From assembly GCA_013519935.1 (NCBI GenBank), contig JACDUA010000004.1, forward strand, positions 1-64,000: 64,000 nt of DNA, in the 5' to 3' direction. This stretch comes from Ectothiorhodospiraceae bacterium WFHF3C12 (lineage in GTDB: Bacteria; Pseudomonadota; Gammaproteobacteria; Nitrococcales; Nitrococcaceae). This document shows, piece after piece, positions 1 through 13,921 of the stretch. Both the position numbers and the translations under genes were made by a program. How positions within the stretch are numbered: position 1 is the stretch's first letter; each line of letters opens with the position of its first letter. Under the pieces are notes generated by a model. It made no database searches. It saw only the letters and a program-made list of their open reading frames with translations, and was not told the DNA's origin.

Positions 1-656
1 GCACGGTGTTCCGCGAGCCCCTGAACCAGATCCAGAACCCGCACGCGGAGCTCGGTCATGGCTTGCACCGCCTCCCGGCTAGATCGAGCGGCACGGGCCG
101 CGGAAATCAGTCCGGCCACCAGCAAGCCGCCGAGCAGTATGCCGCCCGCGAGCAGCCCCAGGGCCGGATGGAACAATGCCAGTCCGCCGGTCAGCGTCAG
201 CACCGCGACGACCGCCACGAGCGGCGGCAGCAGCCCCCGCAGGTAGAGCTCGTCCAGGGCGTCGATATCGGCGGTCAGCCGGTTGAGCACTTCCGCCGAA
301 CGCAACCGCCCCAGGGTGGCGGCGTCCAGCCGCGTCAGCCCGGCGTAGACGTTCCGGCGGAGCAGGGAAAGTAGCCGCAGCACCGTGTCGTGATTGTAAA
401 GACGCTCGAAGTAGCGGGAGACGGTCCGCGCCAGGGCAAAGAATCGGATGCCGGCCCCCGGCACGTAGATATCGAACGCCACCGCCGCGCCGGCGCCCAG
501 CAGCACCGCGGTCACCGCCGTGGCCGTGATGAACCAGCCCGAGAGCGCCAGCAGCCCCACGGCGGCGGCGGTGGTGGCGAACATCAGGGCCGCCCCCAGC
601 AGCAACCGCCGCCAGTAGCGGCCCATGATCCGCAGATAGGGCTTCAGCGCCGTCAT
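1..656 (-). CDS. cydC: CydC, ABC exporter half (partial, cut by window edge)
   Basis: This is the N-terminal part of the CydC half of the heterodimeric CydDC exporter, an inner-membrane ABC protein that moves cysteine/glutathione (or haem-linked) reductant to the periplasm and is needed to assemble cytochrome bd. About 218 codons are present, starting MTALKPYLRIMGRYWRR and running through the first membrane-spanning helices; the ATPase half lies outside the window. Its ATG overlaps the stop of cydD (ATGA), so the two are translationally coupled. The family call rests on position after cydABD and on the type-1 exporter transmembrane pattern (SGWFITATAV, GIRFFALARTVSRYFERL). Confidence 0.88.
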   Translation of the reverse strand, partial: MTALKPYLRIMGRYWRRLLLGAALMFATTAAAVGLLALSGWFITATAVTAVLLGAGAAVAFDIYVPGAGIRFFALARTVSRYFERLYNHDTVLRLLSLLRRNVYAGLTRLDAATLGRLRSAEVLNRLTADIDALDELYLRGLLPPLVAVVAVLTLTGGLALFHPALGLLAGGILLGGLLVAGLISAARAARSSREAVQAMTELRVRVLDLVQGLAEHR

Positions 657-2314
657 GCCCCCATCTCCCGTGGCGAGGGGCCACCCAGATCGACGACCCG
701 GTCCGCCATCGCCAGCACGCTGGCGTGGTGGGAGGCGATGAGCAGGCTCCGCCCGGAACCGGCCAGGTTGAGCAGCGCATGCAGCACCACCGCCTCCGAC
801 TGCGTGTCCAGTCCGGTGGTGGGTTCGTCGAGCAACACCAGCGGCGCGTCGCTGAGAAACACCCGGGCCAAAGCCACGCGCTGGGCCTGCCCGCCGGACA
901 GGCCATGACCCCGCTCGCCGATGACGGTATCCAGCCCCTGCGGTAACAGTCGGGCGAAACCGGCGACCGCGGCGTCGGCGGCGGCCGCCTCCACGGCGGC
1001 GTCATCCGCCTCCGGACGGCCGAGGCGGATGTTCTCGCGGATGCTCTCCTGCGTGATGAACGGTTGCTGTCCGACCCAGGCAACGGCCCCCGGGCCGCGC
1101 TGCACGGCCCCGCCGGCGAGCCCCTGAAAACCGGCCACCGCCCGCAGCAGCGAGCTCTTGCCACTGCCTGAGGGTCCCGCGAGCACGACGACTTCTCCGG
1201 CGCCGACCTCCAGAGAGACCGGCCCCAGGATCACGCCGCGCCCGGGATAGGCCAGCTCCAACCCATCGACCGCGACCGTCCCGGGCACCCCGTCCTCGGC
1301 CACCGAAGCCAGCGGTGACGGCGATTCCAGGGCAAGCACGTCATTGAGCTGTGCGGCGGCACCCAGCGCCGCCGCGCGGTCGTGATAGTGCTGGGCCAGG
1401 CTGCGCAGCGGCTGGAAGAATTCGGGGGCAAGCAGGAGTATGAACAGGCCACTGAACAGGGTGAGCTCGTCGGCGGGGCCGAAGGCGATGTAGCCGAGCA
1501 GGCCAAAGCCGATGTAGATGGCCACCACCGCGATGGCCACGGAGGCGAAGAACTCCAGAACGGCCGAGGAGAGGAAAGCCACGCGCAGCGTCGCCATGGC
1601 ACGCTGCCGGTAACCCTCCGCAGCGGCCTCAACCTCATCGACACTGTGAGGCGCATAGCCGAATAGCTGCAGGGTGGACAAACCCCGCACACGATCGAGG
1701 AAATGACCGGCCAGCCGCGTCATGGACTCGAAATGGCGCTGCTGCAGCCGTTCCGCGCCCATGCCCACCAGCGCCATGAACAACGGAATCAGCGGCGCGC
1801 TCAGCAGCAGGAATATCGCAGCCAGCCAGTCCAGCGTCGCAACCGTAGCCAGGATGGCGACCGGCACCGCGACGGTCAGCCAGAGCTGAGGCAGGTAGCG
1901 GGCGAAATACCCTTCCAGGGCCTCCACCTGCTCCACCGCGCGGCTGGCAAGCCCCGCGCTGTGAAGATGGTGGATCGCCTGGGGCCCGAGCCGGGCGAGG
2001 TGGTCGACCACTTCGGCGCGCACCCGCTGCCGGACCCGCAGCCCCGCCTCGGTGGCACACCGCAGCTGTCCCCACCGCACCAGGGCACGCAACGTCACGG
2101 TCGCGGCGAGCACCGCGACCAGGGCGGCCAATGCCGTCGGCGCCAGGCCGTCGATGACGACCCGCTGTACCAGAGCAGCAATCAGCCCCGCCTGCACGAT
2201 CACCAGCACGCCGTGCAGCGTGCCCCCGGCCGCCGCGCCGATGATCCAGCGCCGGGCGTATCGGCTCCAGCGCTGCAGCAGCCGCCGGGGCGTCAGCTCG
2301 GGGGTCTCGGCCAC
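653..2314 (-). CDS. cydD: CydD, ABC exporter half (permease-ATPase)
   Basis: A 553-residue permease-ATPase fusion of the CydD type and partner of CydC. The N-terminal half carries about six membrane helices. The C-terminal half has a Walker A (AGPSGSGKSS), the signature LSGGQAQRVALAR and a Walker B ending LVLLDEPTTGLD, all intact. It starts at a GTG, since no in-frame ATG fits better, and length matches the family. It lies 61 bp downstream of cydB and overlaps cydC by 4 bp, giving the order cydA-cydB-cydD-cydC. Co-transcription with the oxidase makes the assembly role clear; the transported substrate is inferred from the E. coli proteins. Confidence 0.92.
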   Translation of the reverse strand: MAETPELTPRRLLQRWSRYARRWIIGAAAGGTLHGVLVIVQAGLIAALVQRVVIDGLAPTALAALVAVLAATVTLRALVRWGQLRCATEAGLRVRQRVRAEVVDHLARLGPQAIHHLHSAGLASRAVEQVEALEGYFARYLPQLWLTVAVPVAILATVATLDWLAAIFLLLSAPLIPLFMALVGMGAERLQQRHFESMTRLAGHFLDRVRGLSTLQLFGYAPHSVDEVEAAAEGYRQRAMATLRVAFLSSAVLEFFASVAIAVVAIYIGFGLLGYIAFGPADELTLFSGLFILLLAPEFFQPLRSLAQHYHDRAAALGAAAQLNDVLALESPSPLASVAEDGVPGTVAVDGLELAYPGRGVILGPVSLEVGAGEVVVLAGPSGSGKSSLLRAVAGFQGLAGGAVQRGPGAVAWVGQQPFITQESIRENIRLGRPEADDAAVEAAAADAAVAGFARLLPQGLDTVIGERGHGLSGGQAQRVALARVFLSDAPLVLLDEPTTGLDTQSEAVVLHALLNLAGSGRSLLIASHHASVLAMADRVVDLGGPSPREMGA

Positions 2315-2375: not shown

Positions 2376-3377
2376 TCAGTGATAACCCTCACCGGGCCTC
2401 ACCTTTCCGCGGAAGACCCAGTAGGTCCAGGCGGTATAGGCCAGCACGATGGGGATGACGAACAACACCCCCAGCAGCAGGAACAGCTGCGAGCCCGGTG
2501 CCGAGGCCGCGTCCCAGATGGTGTGATCCGGCGGCACGACATAGGGCCATTTGCTTACCAGCAGGCCCAGGTAGGCGAACACGAACACGCCCATGGTCGC
2601 CACGAAAGGGATGCCCTCCTGCCGGCGGCGCACGCCCTGCCAGATCAACCAGGCGCAGACCAGCGCCATCGCCGGCAGCACCCAGAGCAGGCGGATGTTG
2701 CCGAACCAGCGCTCCCGTACGTAATCATCCACCAGCGGCGTCCAGATGCTGATGATCGCGAACACGGCCAGGACCGCCAGCAGCAGGGGCGTGGTCAGGC
2801 GGTAGGCCCAGGCCTGCAGCTCGCCTTCGGTCTTCATGATCAGCCACGTGGTGCCCAGCAGGGCGTAGCCCGCCAGCAGTCCCAGGCCGGTGATGACCGT
2901 GAACGGGGTCAGCCAGTCCAGGGGACCGCCGACGTACACCATGCCCTGGGTCTCGAAGCCCTCGATGTAGGCCCCCACCACCGCGCCCTGGGCGAAGGCC
3001 GCAATCGTGGAGCCGCCGGCGAATGCCCAGTTCCACAGGTAGCGGGAACGGTTGGCTTTGAAGCGGAACTCGAAGGCCACGCCCCGGAAGATCAGCCCGG
3101 CCAGGAGCAGGAACACCCCGATGTAGAGTGCGGGCAGGAACACCGAGTAAACCAGGGGGAAAGCCCCGAGCAGGCCGGCGCCGCCGAGGACGAGCCAGGT
3201 CTCGTTGCCGTCCCATACCGGCGCCACCGTATTCATCATGACGTCGCGGGAGGACTCGTCCGGGGCGAAGGGAAAGAGAATGCCCACACCCAGGTCGAAA
3301 CCGTCCATGAGCACGTACATCACGATGCCGAAGGCGATGATGACGGCCCAGATCACTGTCAGGTCGATTTGCTCCAT
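2376..3377 (-). CDS. cydB: Cytochrome bd-type quinol oxidase subunit II (CIO-type)
   Basis: A 333-residue polytopic membrane subunit of cytochrome bd, starting MEQIDLTVIWAVIIAFGIVM and rich in hydrophobic helices. WDGNETWLV near residue 55 is the conserved CydB segment. The length is nearer to CioB (about 335) than to E. coli CydB (379). An in-frame start 11 codons upstream exists, but the ATG chosen has a GAGGTGA ribosome site in the end of cydA and begins with the family N-terminus. The gap to cydA is only 4 bp. With CydA it reduces O2 using quinol without pumping protons. No cydX-like small gene was found in the 61 bp after it. Confidence 0.93.
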   Translation of the reverse strand: MEQIDLTVIWAVIIAFGIVMYVLMDGFDLGVGILFPFAPDESSRDVMMNTVAPVWDGNETWLVLGGAGLLGAFPLVYSVFLPALYIGVFLLLAGLIFRGVAFEFRFKANRSRYLWNWAFAGGSTIAAFAQGAVVGAYIEGFETQGMVYVGGPLDWLTPFTVITGLGLLAGYALLGTTWLIMKTEGELQAWAYRLTTPLLLAVLAVFAIISIWTPLVDDYVRERWFGNIRLLWVLPAMALVCAWLIWQGVRRRQEGIPFVATMGVFVFAYLGLLVSKWPYVVPPDHTIWDAASAPGSQLFLLLGVLFVIPIVLAYTAWTYWVFRGKVRPGEGYH

Positions 3378-3381
3378 GGTG

Positions 3382-4785
3382 TCACCTCGCGGATTCGGCG
3401 GTCTCGTCAAACGGCGTATGGGCTGCGGAGAACGGCCGCTTCGGGCGTCCGCCCGACGGCTCCGCGGCGGTTTCCTCGCTCATGCCCGCCTGGATGATGC
3501 GGGTCAGGTAGTACATGCCGGCGGTGAAAACGACGGCATAGACCAGTACGTAGCCAATCAGCGTGAACAGCGCCATGCCTCCGCTCAGCGAGGGCGTCAG
3601 CCCTTCGGCCTGGCTCATGACGCCGTAGACCACCCACGGTGCGCGTCCGACCTCGGTGACGAACCAGCCCGCCAGGACCGCGACGAACGGCGCGATGGTC
3701 ATCAGCCGCAGCCCCTGGAGGAATCCCCGCGCGTCATAGAGGCGGCCACGCAGGCGCAGCCACAGTCCGTAGAAGGCGAAGCCGATCATCAACAGTCCCA
3801 GCCCCACCATGACCCGGAATGACCAGAACACGATGCCCACCGGCGGCTGCTCTTCGCGGGGAACCTCGGCCACGCCCGGCACCTCGCCATCCCACTCGTG
3901 GGTGAGGATGAAGCTCGCCAGCTTCGGGACGCCAACCTCCCAGTGATTCTCCTGGGCGTCCTGGTCCGGCCAGGCGAACAGCAACAGCGGCACGCCGGAT
4001 GCCCGTTCCCAGTTACCCTCCATGGCGGCCACCTTGGTGGGCTGATGCTCCAGGGTATTCAGGCCGTGCATGTCACCGATGAACAGTTGCGCCGGCGACA
4101 GGAACAGCAGCAGCCAGAGCGTCATCGACAGCGCCCGCCGGTTTGCCGCCACGTCCCGGCCCCGGATCAGGTAGTAGGCGCTTACGCCGGCGACCACGAA
4201 ACCACCGGTGAGGAACGACGCCAGCCCCATGTGCAGGAAGCGGTAGATGAACGAGGGATTGAATATGGCCTCGCCCCAGTCCGTGACCCGGAACATACCG
4301 TTCTGCAGCTCCACGCCGGCGGGCGTCTGCATCCAGCTGTTGGCGGAGAGTATCCAGAACGAGGAGATGAAAGTGCCGACGGCCACCATCACCGCCGCGA
4401 AGAAATGGACTCCCCGGGGCACCTTGTCACGGCCGAACAGCAGCACACCGAGGAAGGCCGCCTCCAGGAAGAAGGCCGTCACCACCTCGTAGCTCAGCAC
4501 GGGGCCGAGGAAGTTCGCCGAGGCCTGGGCGAAGTTGCTCCAGTTCGTGCCGAACTGGAACGACATGACGATGCCGGAGACCACGCCCATGCCGAACACC
4601 ACGGCAAAGACGCTGATCCAGAACCGGGAGAGCTTCTCCCAGACGGGGTCGCCGGTTTTCAGGGAAAGCCCCTCGAGCACGGCGATATAGGACGCCAGAC
4701 CGATGGTGAAAACCGGGAATATGGCGTGGAAGGAAACGACGAACGCGAACTGGATTCGCGAGAGCAGTAACGGATCGAGTTCCAT
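3382..4785 (-). CDS. cydA: Cytochrome bd-type quinol oxidase subunit I, short Q-loop (CIO-type)
   Basis: A 467-residue catalytic subunit of cytochrome bd. Residues equivalent to the haem ligands and quinol site are visible: His20 (b595 ligand), His185 and Met326 (b558 ligands), Glu100 and Glu108, and Lys251/Glu256 in the Q-loop (QPTKVAAMEG). The stretch between Lys251 and Met326 is about 67 residues shorter than in E. coli CydA, so it belongs to the short-Q-loop, cyanide-insensitive (CioA) class. The usual GRQPW reads GRAPW (380-384). The ATG chosen is preceded by GGAGGCAGACC; a longer open frame upstream has no homology. It is the first gene of cydABDC. Such oxidases support respiration under low O2, sulfide, cyanide or nitrosative stress. 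Confidence 0.95.
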   Translation of the reverse strand: MELDPLLLSRIQFAFVVSFHAIFPVFTIGLASYIAVLEGLSLKTGDPVWEKLSRFWISVFAVVFGMGVVSGIVMSFQFGTNWSNFAQASANFLGPVLSYEVVTAFFLEAAFLGVLLFGRDKVPRGVHFFAAVMVAVGTFISSFWILSANSWMQTPAGVELQNGMFRVTDWGEAIFNPSFIYRFLHMGLASFLTGGFVVAGVSAYYLIRGRDVAANRRALSMTLWLLLFLSPAQLFIGDMHGLNTLEHQPTKVAAMEGNWERASGVPLLLFAWPDQDAQENHWEVGVPKLASFILTHEWDGEVPGVAEVPREEQPPVGIVFWSFRVMVGLGLLMIGFAFYGLWLRLRGRLYDARGFLQGLRLMTIAPFVAVLAGWFVTEVGRAPWVVYGVMSQAEGLTPSLSGGMALFTLIGYVLVYAVVFTAGMYYLTRIIQAGMSEETAAEPSGGRPKRPFSAAHTPFDETAESAR

Positions 4786-4844
4786 GGTCTGCCTCCGGTT
4801 GAGCCAGGACTGAGGCGTTCCATCGCCGGATGCGGCACCGCACC

Positions 4845-4872
4845 ATGATACCCCCACGGGTATCATTTGCAA
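4845..4872 (-). promoter_or_regulatory. Predicted cydABDC promoter with palindromic operator
   Basis: A perfect inverted repeat, TGATACCC (4846-4853) and GGGTATCA (4858-4865) around a 4-nt centre, lies 61-80 bp upstream of cydA. On the minus strand it sits between a -35-like TTGCAA (4867-4872) and a -10-like TATCAT (4845-4850), 16 bp apart, overlapping the -10. A GC tract flanked by AT ends resembles operators of the CsoR/FrmR/CstR repressor family. The palindrome is direct observation; the promoter and regulator family are inference. No such repressor gene is in the window. Confidence 0.5.
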
Positions 4873-5051: not shown

Positions 5052-5681
5052 ATGACCGGCCACACCAGCCAACGCCGGGTGCTATGGACCGCGCTGATCC
5101 TGAACGGCCTGGGTTTCGCCGTGGAGTTCGGCGTCGGCAATCGTGTCGGCTCCGCGGCACTGCTGGGCGACTCGGCGGACATGCTCGGCGATGCCCTCAC
5201 CTACCTGCTGACGCTGGCGACGCTGACGGCCACTGCGCTCACCCGCACCTGCACCGTAATCGCCAAGGCCGCGCTGCAGCTCGGCTTCGCCGGCCTTCTC
5301 ACCGCCTTGCTCTGGACGCGTCTCCAGCAGCCCGTACCCCCCGGGGCAGTGGCCATCGGCGGGACGGCCCTGTTCGCACTTGCCATCAATGCGGCCTGCG
5401 CCCTGCTGCTGGCCTCGCGACGGAACACCGACCTCAACATGCGCTCCGTGTGGCTGTGCACGCGCAACGACCTGGTGGCGAACGTGTGCATGATCTTTGC
5501 CGCGCTGCTCGTCGCCTACACGGGCAGCAGGTGGCCGGACCTGCTCCTGGGCGGCGCAGTGGTCGCGCTGTTCACGGTCACGTCCCTGCGGCTGCTCGCC
5601 GCCAGCATCCGGCAATGGCCGCGGCGTCTCGCCGCCCGGGATTCACACTCGCCGCGGCGCCTGCCCCAGACCGCCGGTTGA
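5052..5681 (+). CDS. Short CDF-like cation efflux protein
   Basis: A 209-residue membrane protein with about six hydrophobic segments, resembling the membrane domain of cation diffusion facilitators but lacking the cytoplasmic C-terminal metal-sensing domain. TM2 carries GDSADMLGDAL (an Asp-x3-Asp pair) and TM5 carries RNDLVANV (Asp-x3-Asn), where CDF proteins bind Zn, Co or Fe. The substrate cannot be read from sequence. The start has a GGAGGGACCAC ribosome site; the open frame extends further upstream without homology. It is divergent from cydA and converges with the MFS gene 10 bp away. Confidence 0.75.
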   Translation: MTGHTSQRRVLWTALILNGLGFAVEFGVGNRVGSAALLGDSADMLGDALTYLLTLATLTATALTRTCTVIAKAALQLGFAGLLTALLWTRLQQPVPPGAVAIGGTALFALAINAACALLLASRRNTDLNMRSVWLCTRNDLVANVCMIFAALLVAYTGSRWPDLLLGGAVVALFTVTSLRLLAASIRQWPRRLAARDSHSPRRLPQTAG

Positions 5682-8604: not shown

Positions 8605-10176
8605 ATGAACGACAGCGCCGAGAGGCGGGTTAGAAACCTACAGCTCAATGGCGAGCGCGCCCTGTTACGGGGCAGCCGGCGTGGACTCGAGAAGGAGAGC
8701 CTGCGGGTCACCCGGGACGGCAAGATCGCCCTGACGCCCCATCCCGAGGCGCTGGGCTCCGCGCTGTGCCATCCCTGGATCACCACCGACTATTCCGAGG
8801 CGCTGCTGGAGTTCGTCACGCCGCCTTACACGGAGACCGACCAGCTGCTCGGCTTCCTCGACGAGCTGCATCGCTACACCTACGCGAACATCGGCGACGA
8901 GCTACTCTGGGCCACCAGCATGCCCTGCATCGTCGGCGGCGAGCAGGGCATACCCATCGCCGAGTACGGCGATTCCAACGTCGGCCGGATGAAGCACATC
9001 TACCGGCGCGGGCTTGACTGGCGCTACGGCCGCACGATGCAGGCGATTTCCGGCATCCATTTCAATTACTCCTTCAGCGACGAGTTCCTGGCCGCGACCC
9101 GGGCCGCCGAGGGCGACGAGCGCAGCGAGAAGGCTCACCGCTCGGATCTGTACTTCCGGCTGATCCGCAACTTCCAGCGATTCGGCTGGCTCGTGCCTTA
9201 CCTCTTCGGCGCCTCTCCGGCGATCTGCAAGTCCTTCACCGGCGGCGAGAACCTGCATTTCAGGGAGTTCGGCCGGCACACCTTCTATGAGCCCTATGGC
9301 ACGTCGCTGCGCATGAGCGACATCGGCTACAAGAACAAGGCCCAGGCCGGGCTCACGGTCTCCTACAACGACGTCGACGCCTACATCGACAGTCTCAAGC
9401 GCGCCATATCCACGCCCGACCCGGAGTACGCGCGCATCGGCACGGAGGTGGACGGCTTCTGGCGGCAACTCAACGCCAACGTCCTGCAGATCGAGAACGA
9501 GTACTACAGCTTCTCGCGGCCCAAGGCCGTGGCGCGTTCGGGCGAGAAACCCACCACCGCCCTGCGCCGCGCCGGCGTGGAGTACGTGGAAATCCGCGCC
9601 CTGGACCTGAACCCCTTCGAGCCCCTGGGCACCTCGGTGCGGCAGCTGGAGTTCATGGAGACGTTGCTGCTGTTCTGTCTGCTGCGCGATAGCCCGCCCA
9701 TCGACGCCCGGGAACAGGGCCGGATCAACTGCAACCAGGGCCTGGTCGCCCGCCAGGGCCGGGAACCGGGGCTGGAGCTCTACCGGGGCGACGGCCGGCG
9801 CGTCACCCTGCGGAGCTGGGCCAGGGAGCTGTTCGACGCGATGGCCGGACCGGCGGAACTGCTGGACGAGATCCACGACGAGGGCCGCTACACGGAGGCG
9901 CTACGTCAGCTCCGCGAGCGCATCGAGGACCCCGCACTGACGCCCTCGGCCCAGGTGCTGGAAGAAATGGACCGGCACGGCGAAGAGTTTGTGCAGTTCG
10001 CCATGCGCATTTCCGAGGAGCACGAGCAGTACTTCAAGGCCGCCCCCCTGCCCGAGCAGACGCGGCAGCGGTTCGATGCCGAGGCCCGGACCTCACTGGA
10101 GGAGCAGCGCCGCATCGAGGCCGGCGACGACCTGCCCTTCGAGGAATACCTGCGGCGCTACTTCGCCCAGCCGTGA
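8605..10176 (+). CDS. gshA: Glutamate-cysteine ligase, class I
   Basis: This catalyses the first step of glutathione synthesis, ATP-dependent gamma-glutamylcysteine formation in the cytoplasm. The 523 residues match the length of E. coli GshA (518). Recognisable blocks are RGLEKESLRV near residue 28, TTDYSEALLEFVTP near 60, the MKHIYRRGLDWRYG segment, and YVEIRALDLNPFEPLG near 330. No gshB neighbour is present in the window. The 250 bp upstream (8356-8604) holds no gene. Confidence 0.95.
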   Translation: MNDSAERRVRNLQLNGERALLRGSRRGLEKESLRVTRDGKIALTPHPEALGSALCHPWITTDYSEALLEFVTPPYTETDQLLGFLDELHRYTYANIGDELLWATSMPCIVGGEQGIPIAEYGDSNVGRMKHIYRRGLDWRYGRTMQAISGIHFNYSFSDEFLAATRAAEGDERSEKAHRSDLYFRLIRNFQRFGWLVPYLFGASPAICKSFTGGENLHFREFGRHTFYEPYGTSLRMSDIGYKNKAQAGLTVSYNDVDAYIDSLKRAISTPDPEYARIGTEVDGFWRQLNANVLQIENEYYSFSRPKAVARSGEKPTTALRRAGVEYVEIRALDLNPFEPLGTSVRQLEFMETLLLFCLLRDSPPIDAREQGRINCNQGLVARQGREPGLELYRGDGRRVTLRSWARELFDAMAGPAELLDEIHDEGRYTEALRQLRERIEDPALTPSAQVLEEMDRHGEEFVQFAMRISEEHEQYFKAAPLPEQTRQRFDAEARTSLEEQRRIEAGDDLPFEEYLRRYFAQP

Positions 10177-10179
10177 ACC

Positions 10180-10200
10180 CGGCCCGCCCGGGGCGGGCCG
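10180..10200. terminator. Hairpin between convergent gshA and MBL gene
   Basis: CGGCCCGCC and GGCGGGCCG form a perfect 9-bp stem around a 3-nt loop just after the gshA stop and just beyond the stop of the facing gene. There is no T tract, so it may be a bidirectional, imperfect terminator. Confidence 0.5.
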
Positions 10201-10206
10201 GCCCGG

Positions 10207-11094
10207 TCAGGCGTTGCGGGTGAAGCCCTGCTCGTAGTTGACCGGTACCTTGATATAGCTGACGCCGTTGTCTTCCGCCGGCGGCATCTCCCCGCCACGC
10301 ATGTTCACCTGCACGGACGGAATGATCAGCCGGGGCAGATCCAGTGTCCGGTCACGGCCGTCACGCACCTCGACGAACTCATCCTCGGTGGTTTCGTCGC
10401 GGACGTGGATGTTGTTCCGCCGCTGCTCGCCGACGGTGGTCTCGCAGCGGTACTCGCGGCCGCCGGGCCGGTAATCGTGCAGGACGAACATCCGTGTTTC
10501 CTCCGGCAGCTCATAGAGACGCTTGATGGAGCGGTAGAGGATCCGGGCGCTACCGCCGGGGAAGTCGCAGCGGGCGGTACCGCCATCCGGCATGAACAGC
10601 GAGTCGCCGACGAATACGGCGTCACCGATGTGATAGCTGAGGCTATCCGAGGTATGCCCGGGCGTCGGAATGGCACGGGCCTCGATACCGCCGACCCGGA
10701 AGGTCTCGAAATCCTCGAACAGGTGCTGGAACTGGGAGCCGTCGGCGAGAAAGCCACGGTCGACGTTGTAGACCGACTTGAAGTGCTCCTGGACCTGCCG
10801 GATGCCCTGGCCGATGGCCAGTGTGCCGCCCAGTTGCCGATGGATATAGCCGCCGCCGGCCAGATGGTCCGCGTGGGCATGGGTTTCGAGCACCCACTGC
10901 ACCGTCAGCCCCTGGGAGCGGACGAACTCGATGATCCGGTCCGCGGACTGGGTGCCGGTGCGTCCGGCGTGCTCCTCGTAGTCCAGCACGGCATCGATCA
11001 CCGCCGCCTGGAGGCTGTCCGGGTCCCATACGACGTAGGAGAAAGTGGACGTGGGCTCGTGGATGAAGCTCTGCACGACCGGTGTCTGGCTCAT
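10207..11094 (-). CDS. MBL-fold hydrolase, persulfide-dioxygenase-like (ETHE1/Blh group)
   Basis: A 295-residue metallo-beta-lactamase-fold protein with THAHADHLAG (His72, His74, Asp76, His77), PTPGHTSDS and VFVGDSLF. These fit the ETHE1/Blh group, which oxidises glutathione persulfide to sulfite with one Fe. The ATG has a strong GGAGGTGA site; a longer open frame upstream runs across the promoter and is rejected. It faces gshA, so glutathione supply and persulfide use lie side by side. A glyoxalase II-like hydrolase is the alternative. The upstream dyad suggests repression (see 11122-11153). Confidence 0.8.
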   Translation of the reverse strand: MSQTPVVQSFIHEPTSTFSYVVWDPDSLQAAVIDAVLDYEEHAGRTGTQSADRIIEFVRSQGLTVQWVLETHAHADHLAGGGYIHRQLGGTLAIGQGIRQVQEHFKSVYNVDRGFLADGSQFQHLFEDFETFRVGGIEARAIPTPGHTSDSLSYHIGDAVFVGDSLFMPDGGTARCDFPGGSARILYRSIKRLYELPEETRMFVLHDYRPGGREYRCETTVGEQRRNNIHVRDETTEDEFVEVRDGRDRTLDLPRLIIPSVQVNMRGGEMPPAEDNGVSYIKVPVNYEQGFTRNA

Positions 11095-11121
11095 GGTCAC
11101 CTCCGCGGGAAGTACATCTAT

Positions 11122-11153
11122 TTCATTATATGCATATGAACGAATAAAATGAA
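11122..11153 (-). promoter_or_regulatory. Predicted promoter with dyad over the -10 box
   Basis: On the minus strand a perfect TATAAT (11125-11130) lies 17 bp from TTCATT (11148-11153). A dyad TTCAT-N9-ATGAA (11122-11140), with an internal ATATGCATAT palindrome, covers the -10 box. ArsR-family sulfur sensors (BigR, SqrR) bind AT-rich dyads of this kind in front of Blh-type genes; assignment to them is inference. Confidence 0.5.
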
Positions 11154-11296
11154 CTTCAACGGCCCGTGACGCCGGCGGCCTGGAAATGTGCGCCACGTCC
11201 GGATCGATCGGGACGCTTCGTCCAGACTGTGCGGGACTCGAGCGCTGGCGCAGCAAGGACGAATGCGCCGACTGATGCCGGAAACATGCCCCTTTG

Positions 11297-13921
11297 ATGA
11301 CATCGTTCCGCCGTCTTCACATCCTGGTTTTTGGGGGCCTGCTGGCTGGCCTGTTGTCGGGCATCCCCTCCGCCGGCGCCGACGACCGCGACCCGCTGGT
11401 CGTCGTTCAGGACCGTGCCTGGGCACCCATGGCGTTCGCCGATGACCAGGGCAATCCGCAAGGCATGCTGGTTGATCTGTGGCGCGCGGTCGGCGAGAAG
11501 CTCGACCGGCCGGTGCGCTTCGAGCTCGTCAACTGGCAGCGGACCCTCGAGCTGACCCGTGACAGCGACGACCGGGTCCACGGCGGGCTATTCCTGTCCG
11601 AGGAACGCGACGCCTACCTCGATTACGCCAACGAGCTTGTTCCCCTTCGCACCGCCCTGTTCATCGCCGCCGAGGCCGGCACGGCCGGGCTGCTGGAGGC
11701 GTCGGACCTGACCGGCACCGAGGTGGGCGTGACCGCCGGCGGTTACGAGGCCACGTTCCTCCGGCAGAATCACCCCGACATCACCCTGAAACCCTACCCG
11801 AACAACGAAGCGCTCATCCGCGCCGCGACGCGCGGTGAAATCCGCGCCTTCGCGGCGGACTACCCGGTGGGGATGTACTACCTCGACCGCCACACGACGC
11901 CGGACCGTTTCCGGGTGCTGGAGGTGCTCTACGCCCAGCCACTCCGGGCCGCGGTGGCCGAAGACAACGACGCCCTCATGGCGGAGATCAATCGCGGGCT
12001 GTCCCTGCTCACGCCCGCGGAGAAGAGCCGGATCACCCAGAAATGGCTGCGCACCGAGCGCGTCGAGACCATCCCGTCCTGGCTGATACCGGTAATGAGC
12101 CTCGGTGCCGGCCTCACGGTGCTGGCCTGGCTGCTGCTGCATAACCGATTACTGCGCCACCAGGTTCTGAGTCAGACCCGCGACCTGGCGGAGCGTGAGC
12201 GACGGCTGACCCTGCTGACCGACAACATCACCGACGTGGTCTGGGCCGTGGGGCCCGATCGCCGATACACCTATGTCAGCCCGTCCATCGAACGACTCAC
12301 GGGCTCCCGTCCCGAGGAGATCGTCGGTAACCGGATGGGCGGCACCATCACTCCGGATTCCGTGGACCTGCTCACCGAACACATAAGGCGCGCCCGCGAT
12401 CAGGTAAGTCGCGGCGAGGCCCGGGGGCACGTGGACTTCACGGTTGAGGCACAGATGCTGCGAACCGACGCCCAGCCGCTGTGGACCGAGGTCGCAGCCA
12501 GGGTGTTCTTCGACGACGCGGCGCGTTTCACCGGCATGCAGGGCGTGACCCGGGAGATTACCGAGCGCCGGCGTTCCCGGGAGACCATCGAGCAGCTCGC
12601 CTACTACGACGCCCTCACGGGCCTGCCCAACCGCCGGCTGCTCCTCGAACGACTGGGGCAGGCCCGCAACGAATGCCTCCGCGGGGGCGAGCACGGCGTG
12701 CTGCTGTTCCTGGATCTGGACAACTTCAAGACCCTCAACGACACCGAGGGCCACTACATCGGCGACGCGCTGCTGCAACACGTCGCGGACCGGCTCTCCG
12801 GGTCCGTTCGCGATGACGACACCGTCGCCCGGCTGGGCGGCGACGAGTTCGTGGTGGTCCTGGGCAACATGGGCGCCACCCAGGACGCGGCCCGCCGCAA
12901 TGCCGAGCGCGTGGGCACTGCAATGCTGGCCAAGCTCAGTCAGCCCTACACGCTCAGCGGCCGCCAGGTTCACACCAGCGCCAGCATCGGCGCGGCGATA
13001 TTCGGCCGCAACGGTGAGAGCGTGGAGAACATCCTCAAACAGGCCGACATGGCCATGTACGAGGCGAAGGTCGCCGGCCGGGGCACGTTCTGTTTCTACG
13101 AGCCCAGCATGCAGGCCGCCGTGGATGCCCGGGCCCGCCTGGAGCGGGATCTGCGCGAGGCCATCCAGCTGGCCCAGTTCACCCTTTACTACCAGCCCCA
13201 GGTGGATGGCGAAGGCCGGGTCACGGGCGCAGAGGCCTTGCTGCGCTGGCTGCACCCGGAACGCGGCATGGTCTCGCCGGCGGAATTCATCGGCCTGGCC
13301 GAGGAGACCAACCTCATCGCACCACTGGGCCAGTGGGTCCTGGAGACCGCCTGTCGGCAGCTGGCGAGCTGGGCAGAGGCGAGCGCGACGGCCGGACTGT
13401 CGCTGTCGGTGAACGTCAGCGCGCGGCAGTTCGAACACCCCGGCTTCGTGGACGAGGTCTGCCAGGCCCTGGAGCGCAGCGGTGCCGACCCCGGGCAGCT
13501 CAAGCTGGAGCTTACCGAGAGCTCGATCCTCCGGGACGTCGACGCCGCCATCACGAAAATGGCCCGGTTGCGCGAGCTCGGCGTCGGCTTCGCCCTGGAC
13601 GACTTCGGCACCGGGTATTCCTCGCTGTCCTATCTCAAGCGCCTGCCGCTGGACCAGCTCAAGATCGACAAATCGTTCGTACACCATGTGCTGACCGACG
13701 AGGACGACGCGGCCATTGCGCAAACGGTCATCGCCCTGGGCCGGATGCTGAATCTGCCCGTGATCGCGGAGGGCGTGGAAACGCGCGAGCAGCAGCGATT
13801 CCTCTGCGAGCACGGCTGCCATGCCTTTCAGGGCTTTCTCTTCGGCCGCCCCCAGCCGCCGGAGGCCTTCGAGGCCGCGCTGCGCGGCAACGCCTCCGCG
13901 TCGGGGCGCGAAACGGCCTGA
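11297..13921 (+). CDS. Periplasmic solute-binding / PAS / GGDEF / EAL signalling protein
   Basis: A bifunctional cyclic-di-GMP protein of about 874 residues. Order: signal segment, a type 3 solute-binding domain (about 30-250, starting DPLVVVQDRAWAPMAF), one membrane helix near 260 (LGAGLTVLAWLLL), PAS (about 300-420), GGDEF with intact RLGGDEFV near 515, and EAL with AEALLRWLHP near 643 and DDFGTGYSSL. Both catalytic motifs look intact, so both synthesis and hydrolysis are possible. It probably senses an amino acid or similar ligand in the periplasm. The start is uncertain: ATG here, or a TTG one codon earlier; no clear ribosome site is seen. Confidence 0.9.
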   Translation: MTSFRRLHILVFGGLLAGLLSGIPSAGADDRDPLVVVQDRAWAPMAFADDQGNPQGMLVDLWRAVGEKLDRPVRFELVNWQRTLELTRDSDDRVHGGLFLSEERDAYLDYANELVPLRTALFIAAEAGTAGLLEASDLTGTEVGVTAGGYEATFLRQNHPDITLKPYPNNEALIRAATRGEIRAFAADYPVGMYYLDRHTTPDRFRVLEVLYAQPLRAAVAEDNDALMAEINRGLSLLTPAEKSRITQKWLRTERVETIPSWLIPVMSLGAGLTVLAWLLLHNRLLRHQVLSQTRDLAERERRLTLLTDNITDVVWAVGPDRRYTYVSPSIERLTGSRPEEIVGNRMGGTITPDSVDLLTEHIRRARDQVSRGEARGHVDFTVEAQMLRTDAQPLWTEVAARVFFDDAARFTGMQGVTREITERRRSRETIEQLAYYDALTGLPNRRLLLERLGQARNECLRGGEHGVLLFLDLDNFKTLNDTEGHYIGDALLQHVADRLSGSVRDDDTVARLGGDEFVVVLGNMGATQDAARRNAERVGTAMLAKLSQPYTLSGRQVHTSASIGAAIFGRNGESVENILKQADMAMYEAKVAGRGTFCFYEPSMQAAVDARARLERDLREAIQLAQFTLYYQPQVDGEGRVTGAEALLRWLHPERGMVSPAEFIGLAEETNLIAPLGQWVLETACRQLASWAEASATAGLSLSVNVSARQFEHPGFVDEVCQALERSGADPGQLKLELTESSILRDVDAAITKMARLRELGVGFALDDFGTGYSSLSYLKRLPLDQLKIDKSFVHHVLTDEDDAAIAQTVIALGRMLNLPVIAEGVETREQQRFLCEHGCHAFQGFLFGRPQPPEAFEAALRGNASASGRETA

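Follow-up and report, generated by a model that had tools for sequence, protein, structure and literature searches.

What controls the cytochrome bd operon at the start of the window (the whole stretch of 64,000 nucleotides of Ectothiorhodospiraceae bacterium WFHF3C12 analyzed here), and which signal would such a control convey? An earlier note had pointed to a palindrome in the promoter of cydABDC and had offered copper, sulfur species or aldehydes as the effectors of a CsoR/CstR/FrmR-type repressor acting there. We consider it probable that this palindrome is the operator of a CsoR-family repressor encoded on contig C135 of the same genome, placing cydABDC under a control that resembles that of the sulfane-sulfur sensors.

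The palindrome and the cyd promoter

All genes of the operon lie on the minus strand. The first, cydA (3382..4785; PF01654, E = 2.4e-162), specifies a cytochrome bd subunit I of 467 amino acids including the start methionine, and the second, cydB (2376..3377; PF02322, E = 8e-99), subunit II. These are followed by a cydD-like ABC transporter gene of uncertain start (653..2314; PF00664 and PF00005) and by a cydC-like open frame truncated by the contig start (1..656), both of which owe their names to position. The CydA protein is CioA-like: in the Q-loop alignment 65 residues are missing relative to the long-loop CydA of loci L145 and L152, which bears out the short Q-loop claimed earlier and places the protein with the CioAB type, whose CydA is without the C-terminal Q-loop insert. 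A gene of the cation-efflux (CDF) family (5052..5681, plus strand; PF01545, E = 3.5e-11) is divergent to cydA and lies 188 bp from the operator core; common control of the two genes via the predicted operator is possible.

The predicted operator (4845..4866, with no strand assigned) has the form ATGATACCC-CCAC-GGGTATCAT, the plus-strand letters being ATGATACCCCCACGGGTATCAT, and its core, ATACCC-N4-GGGTAT, occupies 4848-4863; the prediction draws on the sequence and on motif enrichment both genome-wide and cross-genome. The palindrome is present as claimed; around a center of 4 bp (CCAC) its arms span 9 bp each, one more than described. The chance of such an inverted repeat within a 269-bp segment is P = 0.023, and the window holds 27 arm-9 inverted repeats, overlapping ones included, versus a mean of 6.4 in simulations. 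The bare palindrome is only mildly unusual; it is its sequence that makes it special. Scanning the window for further copies with up to two mismatches returned none besides the cyd one.

A consensus scan finds a single sigma-70-like match between 4400 and 5300, where 0.2 are expected in shuffles. This predicted promoter, on the minus strand, consists of a -35 hexamer TTGCAA (4872-4867), 16 bp, and a -10 hexamer TATCAT (4850-4845), with 9 of 12 positions matching the consensus, and the cydA start at 4785 is 59 bases downstream of the predicted operator and promoter. The cydA transcript would be expected to begin near 4838. Since there is no other match, the right arm of the palindrome would itself be the -10 hexamer, in keeping with the earlier placement of the palindrome between a -35-like and a -10-like box and overlapping the latter.

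The element ATACCCCCACGGGTAT combines a TAC/GTA inverted repeat with a G/C tract (C5, where at least four are called for) and covers the predicted -10, all of which are features of the CsoR-family "type 2" operators that lie over promoter elements. The cyd site also matches exactly the 16-bp ATACC-n6-GGTAT form of the ScCsoR-type sulfane-sulfur operator, and it departs from the copper CsoR box (spacer 5, TAC-X9-GTA) in having a spacer of 4. In the 4.6-Mb genome the core pattern occurs in four exact copies, the cyd site included, versus none for a reversed-pattern control; allowing up to one mismatch raises this to 12 sites (4 exact and 8 with one mismatch) versus 2 in the control. With up to two mismatches the counts, 101 versus 45, were too noisy and were dropped as evidence.

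A persulfide-dioxygenase-type gene (Blh/ETHE1-like; 10207..11094, minus strand), 6 kb from cyd, matches NF040641 under its cut-off (E = 3.1e-110), and the site scan, with up to three mismatches, revealed no site upstream of it. The gene at 8605-10176 on the plus strand reads like a glutamate-cysteine ligase; with the dioxygenase gene it lies 4-6 kb from cyd, and the two converge on a GC-rich hairpin at 10179-10201.

Other sites in the genome and the candidate regulator

For each of the 12 sites with up to one mismatch in the window's own genome (G000) we inspected the neighborhood, using gene calls from a simple codon-usage script with approximate starts. Nine are intergenic and no more than 161 bp from a called start; the three inside genes look like chance. 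Besides the site before cydA, two lie in the gap that separates an SQR-like gene from a SLAC1 channel gene, and one each at the genes for a 1-Cys peroxiredoxin, a second SQR-like protein, a SulP transporter, an OsmC protein and the CsoR-family protein of C135. Both SQR-like genes score under NCBIfam's SQR cut-off. The ninth, an exact copy at position 7046 of L022 (C81:90000-104000), is flanked by an MFS gene and by a small uncharacterized gene that reads MGGGMDERG... and weakly matches DUF4175, with no clear sulfur link at either neighbor. On contig C124, a sulfur island (L018, C124:12000-30014; 9294-12644) brings together SQR-like, SLAC1 and 1-Cys peroxiredoxin genes with three copies of the operator within 2 kb.

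As a control we took nine genomes of the same order that have no csoR ortholog. Allowing up to one mismatch, these contain 36 sites, of which 20 were inspected: 15 are inside genes and 5 outside, and 2 of the latter lie upstream of a called gene at a distance of up to 250 bp. The difference in upstream location (9 of 12 versus 2 of 20) gives a one-sided Fisher P of 3e-4, or 7e-4 when the cyd site is left out. Position and neighbors were used because the counts with up to one mismatch barely separate csoR-positive from csoR-negative genomes: the nine negative ones have 1-8 such sites each, and the positive G004 and G024 have 1 and 3.

The SulP gene of G000 is divided between two contig ends, each half matching a different portion of a single SulP protein. 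In G023 the order is intact (purC - site - csoR - SulP - site - photolyase), and G040/G063 keep this order as far as a gene of similar size. Hence, the SulP and CsoR contig ends of G000 are probably one chromosomal locus with two operators.

The earlier note had called for a genome-wide search for the motif and for a CsoR-family gene carrying it upstream, and had held that its reading would fall if the motif stood at this site only in a genome devoid of CsoR-family genes. The outcome is the opposite in both respects: the motif recurs at further sulfur-related promoters, and the genome has two CsoR-family genes (PF02583), one of which, on C135, has a one-mismatch copy 46 bp upstream. The product of this gene (C135, from 23243; 98 amino acids) belongs to the DUF156 family, with 76.5 bits versus a cut-off of 22.8. 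Its first sensor cysteine, C43, occupies the position of C31 in CstR and C37 in ScCsoR, and is kept in the query and in 79 of 80 relatives. The second cysteine, Cys67, is at +24. In CstR it is at +29, as it is in the S. pneumoniae chain, and from this difference we take the C135 regulator, by its sequence, to be a CstR-like variant and not a CstR. Both cysteines are present in 74 of the 80 relatives, a figure biased upwards, since the +24 cysteine was itself part of one of the two search patterns. On a regular helix +24 faces differently from +29, so CstR-like bridging is not to be assumed; by analogy with ScCsoR, persulfidation of C43 is the simpler guess.

Five relatives have an arginine at +24 and a cysteine at +30, counted by eye. 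They come from Bipolaricaulota, Acetothermia and an unclassified bacterium (L072, L078, L083, L107 and L118), and an exact operator occurs at three of them, L078, L083 and L107. A second csoR copy in G030 (L043, G030:C11) lacks a convincing in-frame start, and seven consecutive A directly precede its conserved part, which may reflect a frameshift or a sequencing error.

The motif and csoR across genomes

For comparison with relatives, we kept the best 80 of 286 candidate csoR loci (1.03 Mb in total). Matches of at least 59% identity were treated as orthologs; a protein search of 40 relatives also gave many other CsoR members at 27-39%. In these best 80 loci the motif occurs at spacer 4 in 13 exact copies and 41 copies with up to one mismatch. 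Exact matches at spacers 0-3 and 5-9 are absent, spacer 10 gives one, and scrambling the arms leaves none. In 20 of the best 80 loci, the region -400..+100 of csoR contains a site with up to one mismatch, versus 0-2 for nine control patterns; the remaining 60 have no such site directly upstream of csoR. At least 42 of the 80, a lower bound because many contigs are short, have a PDO, YeeE/YedE, SQR, SulP, OsmC or SLAC1 gene within 6 kb, going by phmmer labels. The motif itself is seen at SQR, PDO, SulP, YeeE/YedE and soxC genes, which, judged by the motif alone, are targets of the CstR kind, and its linkage with the csoR clade spans loci from Gamma- and Betaproteobacteria, Acidobacteriota and Bipolaricaulota.

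The motif also tends to occur in the same genomes as csoR. An initial test among relatives (motif in 5 of 6 versus 6 of 34; P = 0.004) includes G000, where the idea arose, and genomes picked partly for the motif at their loci were excluded from the co-occurrence evidence. Even drawing from the class gave a sample of 185 genomes, of which nine are csoR carriers by a profile match with E up to 1e-15. An exact site is present in seven of the nine and in 23 of the 176 genomes with no such match (one-sided P = 4e-5; 2e-4 when G000 is left out); the two carriers with no exact site are G181 and G214. The five site-bearing carriers other than G000 and G024 contribute six exact sites, none of them inside a called gene, and four of the six stand before sulfur genes: divergent SQR/PDO in two genomes, PDO-SulP, and soxC. 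By comparison, when 11 of the 25 exact sites in the csoR-negative class genomes were inspected, 10 were inside genes and none of the 11 was in front of a labeled sulfur gene. Taken together, the operator, its predicted regulon and its tie to this CsoR clade are supported by sequence. In G165, a genome with a member of the csoR clade, an exact operator (L232, 8631) lies 138 bp before a gene for a soxC-type sulfite dehydrogenase that scores above the TIGR04555 cut-off.

Is cyd itself a conserved target? Seven csoR-positive genomes have a cydA of the MELDP/MEFDP type; G040 and G063 share contig sequence and were counted once. The cydA promoters of G023 and of G040/G063 each carry AAACCC..GGGTATAAT, a site with one mismatch within diverged flanks, and in both a TATAAT -10 lies where the right arm lies. 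G004 arrives at cyd by another route: its cydAB genes follow a Crp-like gene of the same strand, and the one-mismatch site, 53 bp ahead of that Crp-like gene, diverges to a YgaP-TM gene. In this region (L202, 1120-3499), a YgaP-TM, DsrE-like and rhodanese-like set (the latter two named by sequence reading) diverges from the Crp-like-cydAB genes. With up to two mismatches, no site was found at cydA of the csoR-positive G024, G027 and G030, so cyd is not a core target. Going by these sites, it is a recurrent, non-universal member of the predicted regulon, in two other species and, by way of the Crp-like gene, in a third genome.

Alternatives, proposed mechanism and known systems

The same arms could be read as a box for copper or another metal, a Cu(I)-responsive repressor letting cyd be induced when a copper-free oxidase is needed (under copper, or with no usable heme-copper oxidase). 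Copper CsoR operators do share the ATACCC..GGGTAT arms and overlap -10 elements, cytochrome bd has no copper in it, and the gene divergent to cydA is one for cation efflux. Yet the boxes for copper have a 5-bp spacer, at which the best 80 csoR loci gave no exact match versus the 13 for N4, and the targets of the motif are sulfur genes. The C135 regulator has alanine at +25 and aspartate at +29, and hence not the C-H-C copper ligands, while the other CsoR gene of the genome (C84) adjoins copA and specifies Cys-His-His at the ligand positions, as read by eye. The DNA before copA holds CCCCACCCCGGGTGGGG, a CCCCACC..GGTGGGG element, and no ATACCC-type site was found in the copA upstream region; given the adjacency to copA and this different element, the C84 protein is likely a copper sensor. 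The copper effector offered earlier was rejected on the spacer of 4 instead of 5, the missing ligands and the distinct copA-linked CsoR, and we regard a metal box at cyd as very unlikely. The aldehyde proposal fails on scores: the C135 protein reaches 41.9 versus a cut-off of 133 for the FrmR equivalog of NCBIfam (RcnR, 39.5 versus 138), and the formaldehyde/FrmR reading was discarded.

A different, unlinked transcription factor might bind the motif, with csoR being just one of its targets, and two of the nine carriers in the class sample, those with no exact site, would fit this. The tie of the motif to the csoR clade over loci from four bacterial groups speaks against it, as do arms and spacing that suit a CsoR-family operator; we think such a factor unlikely. 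That the palindrome has no regulatory role, being a product of chance or else a hairpin or terminator-like element, strikes us as highly improbable. As single-stranded DNA it does fold stably (-10.2 kcal/mol, z -5.1), and the GC-rich window is enriched in inverted repeats, but no T run follows it, no terminator was found, and it would not be transcribed if the predicted promoter is correct. Single arm changes elsewhere break the pairing and keep the motif (AAACCC..GGGTAT in G023), and the regulon and cross-genome evidence also tell against chance. The hairpin or terminator was rejected on the lack of a T run and the non-conserved pairing. Among the three effectors offered earlier, sulfur species fit best, and the earlier proposal has good support as regards sulfur, though not as regards copper.

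For the CsoR-family operator that we favor, we infer binding, repression, effector and cysteine chemistry as follows. The DUF156 repressor from C135 would cover the -10 element and so close the cydABDC promoter; from what is known of the family, the reduced protein would bind the operator and block RNA polymerase. It may act in the manner of CstR and of the S. coelicolor CsoR, both of them sulfane-sulfur sensors: sulfide oxidation would raise persulfide or polysulfide, Cys43 (with Cys67) would be modified, and the repressor would let go. The short-Q-loop cytochrome bd could then be made together with the SQR-like enzymes, the SLAC1 channel, the peroxiredoxin, OsmC, SulP and more repressor. In this way, a sulfide-tolerant quinol oxidase would be at hand while SQR is loading the quinone pool and the heme-copper oxidases are poisoned. 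We further lean, by a modest degree, toward the idea that these regulators form a separate clade of CsoR sensors, with C-x23-C instead of C-x28-C, common in Gamma- and Betaproteobacteria, having a different thiol chemistry for persulfide, a dispersed regulon and a terminal oxidase as a direct target. If so, one repressor couples sulfide oxidation to the choice of respiratory oxidase and provides a direct mechanism for sulfide-induced cytochrome bd.

Sulfide is known to induce cytochrome bd in E. coli, M. tuberculosis and A. baumannii (PMC7315123). As late as 2022, a paper described the mechanism as unknown and then went on to propose YgaV (PMC9774250). The window suggests a direct mechanism that can be read in the DNA, namely an oxidase operator common to SQR-like and other sulfur genes. 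In our search of mostly open-access literature, no description turned up of direct action by a CsoR-family protein on a cyd promoter. The spacer of 4 versus 5 is a cheap rule for separating sulfur from copper CsoR boxes, and the comparison names a sensor clade with a distinct cysteine geometry.

The fold of YgaV is of the ArsR type. This E. coli protein of the SqrR/BigR family is, like the candidate here, a persulfide-responsive repressor, the loss of which raises cydAB transcripts, but it belongs to an unrelated protein family and has a site of the ATTC-N8-GAAT type (PMC9774250). The Thermus thermophilus TTHA1953 is a CsoR-like regulator with a scattered sulfur regulon; it differs in its operator, TACNNTACNNNNGTANNGTA, in its C39 and C68 being 29 apart, and in its Sox targets (PMC10318464). 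The copper CsoR proteins of Streptomyces lividans and B. liaoningense, from the same family, have ATACCC/GGGTAT arms and an operator over the -10, but with a spacer of 5, C-H-C ligands and copper efflux targets (PMC3902906, PMC5057107). S. aureus CstR and B. licheniformis YrkD are CsoR-like persulfide repressors set over sulfide-oxidation genes, with no cyd target reported in the accessible text (PMC5480029, PMC9918477); in S. aureus, CstR appears to have a single operon under its direct control (PMC5480029). Streptomyces coelicolor ScCsoR (SCO0620) controls PDO, a rhodanese, a sulfite transporter and its own gene; it is a repressor of PDO and of itself, and persulfidation of Cys37 brings about its release, with Cys66 needed as well (PMC7533328). 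This DUF156 repressor has a 16-bp operator, ATACC-n6-GGTAT, of a geometry identical to that of the cyd site, whereas its Cys37 and Cys66 are 29 apart as against 24 in the C135 CsoR, its targets are in one locus with cyd not among them, and it comes from another phylum (PMC7533328). CsoR proteins that sense persulfide, and the induction of cytochrome bd by sulfide, are thus already known; what would be new is the same type of switch in a clade with a shifted cysteine, with a wider regulon that takes in a respiratory oxidase.
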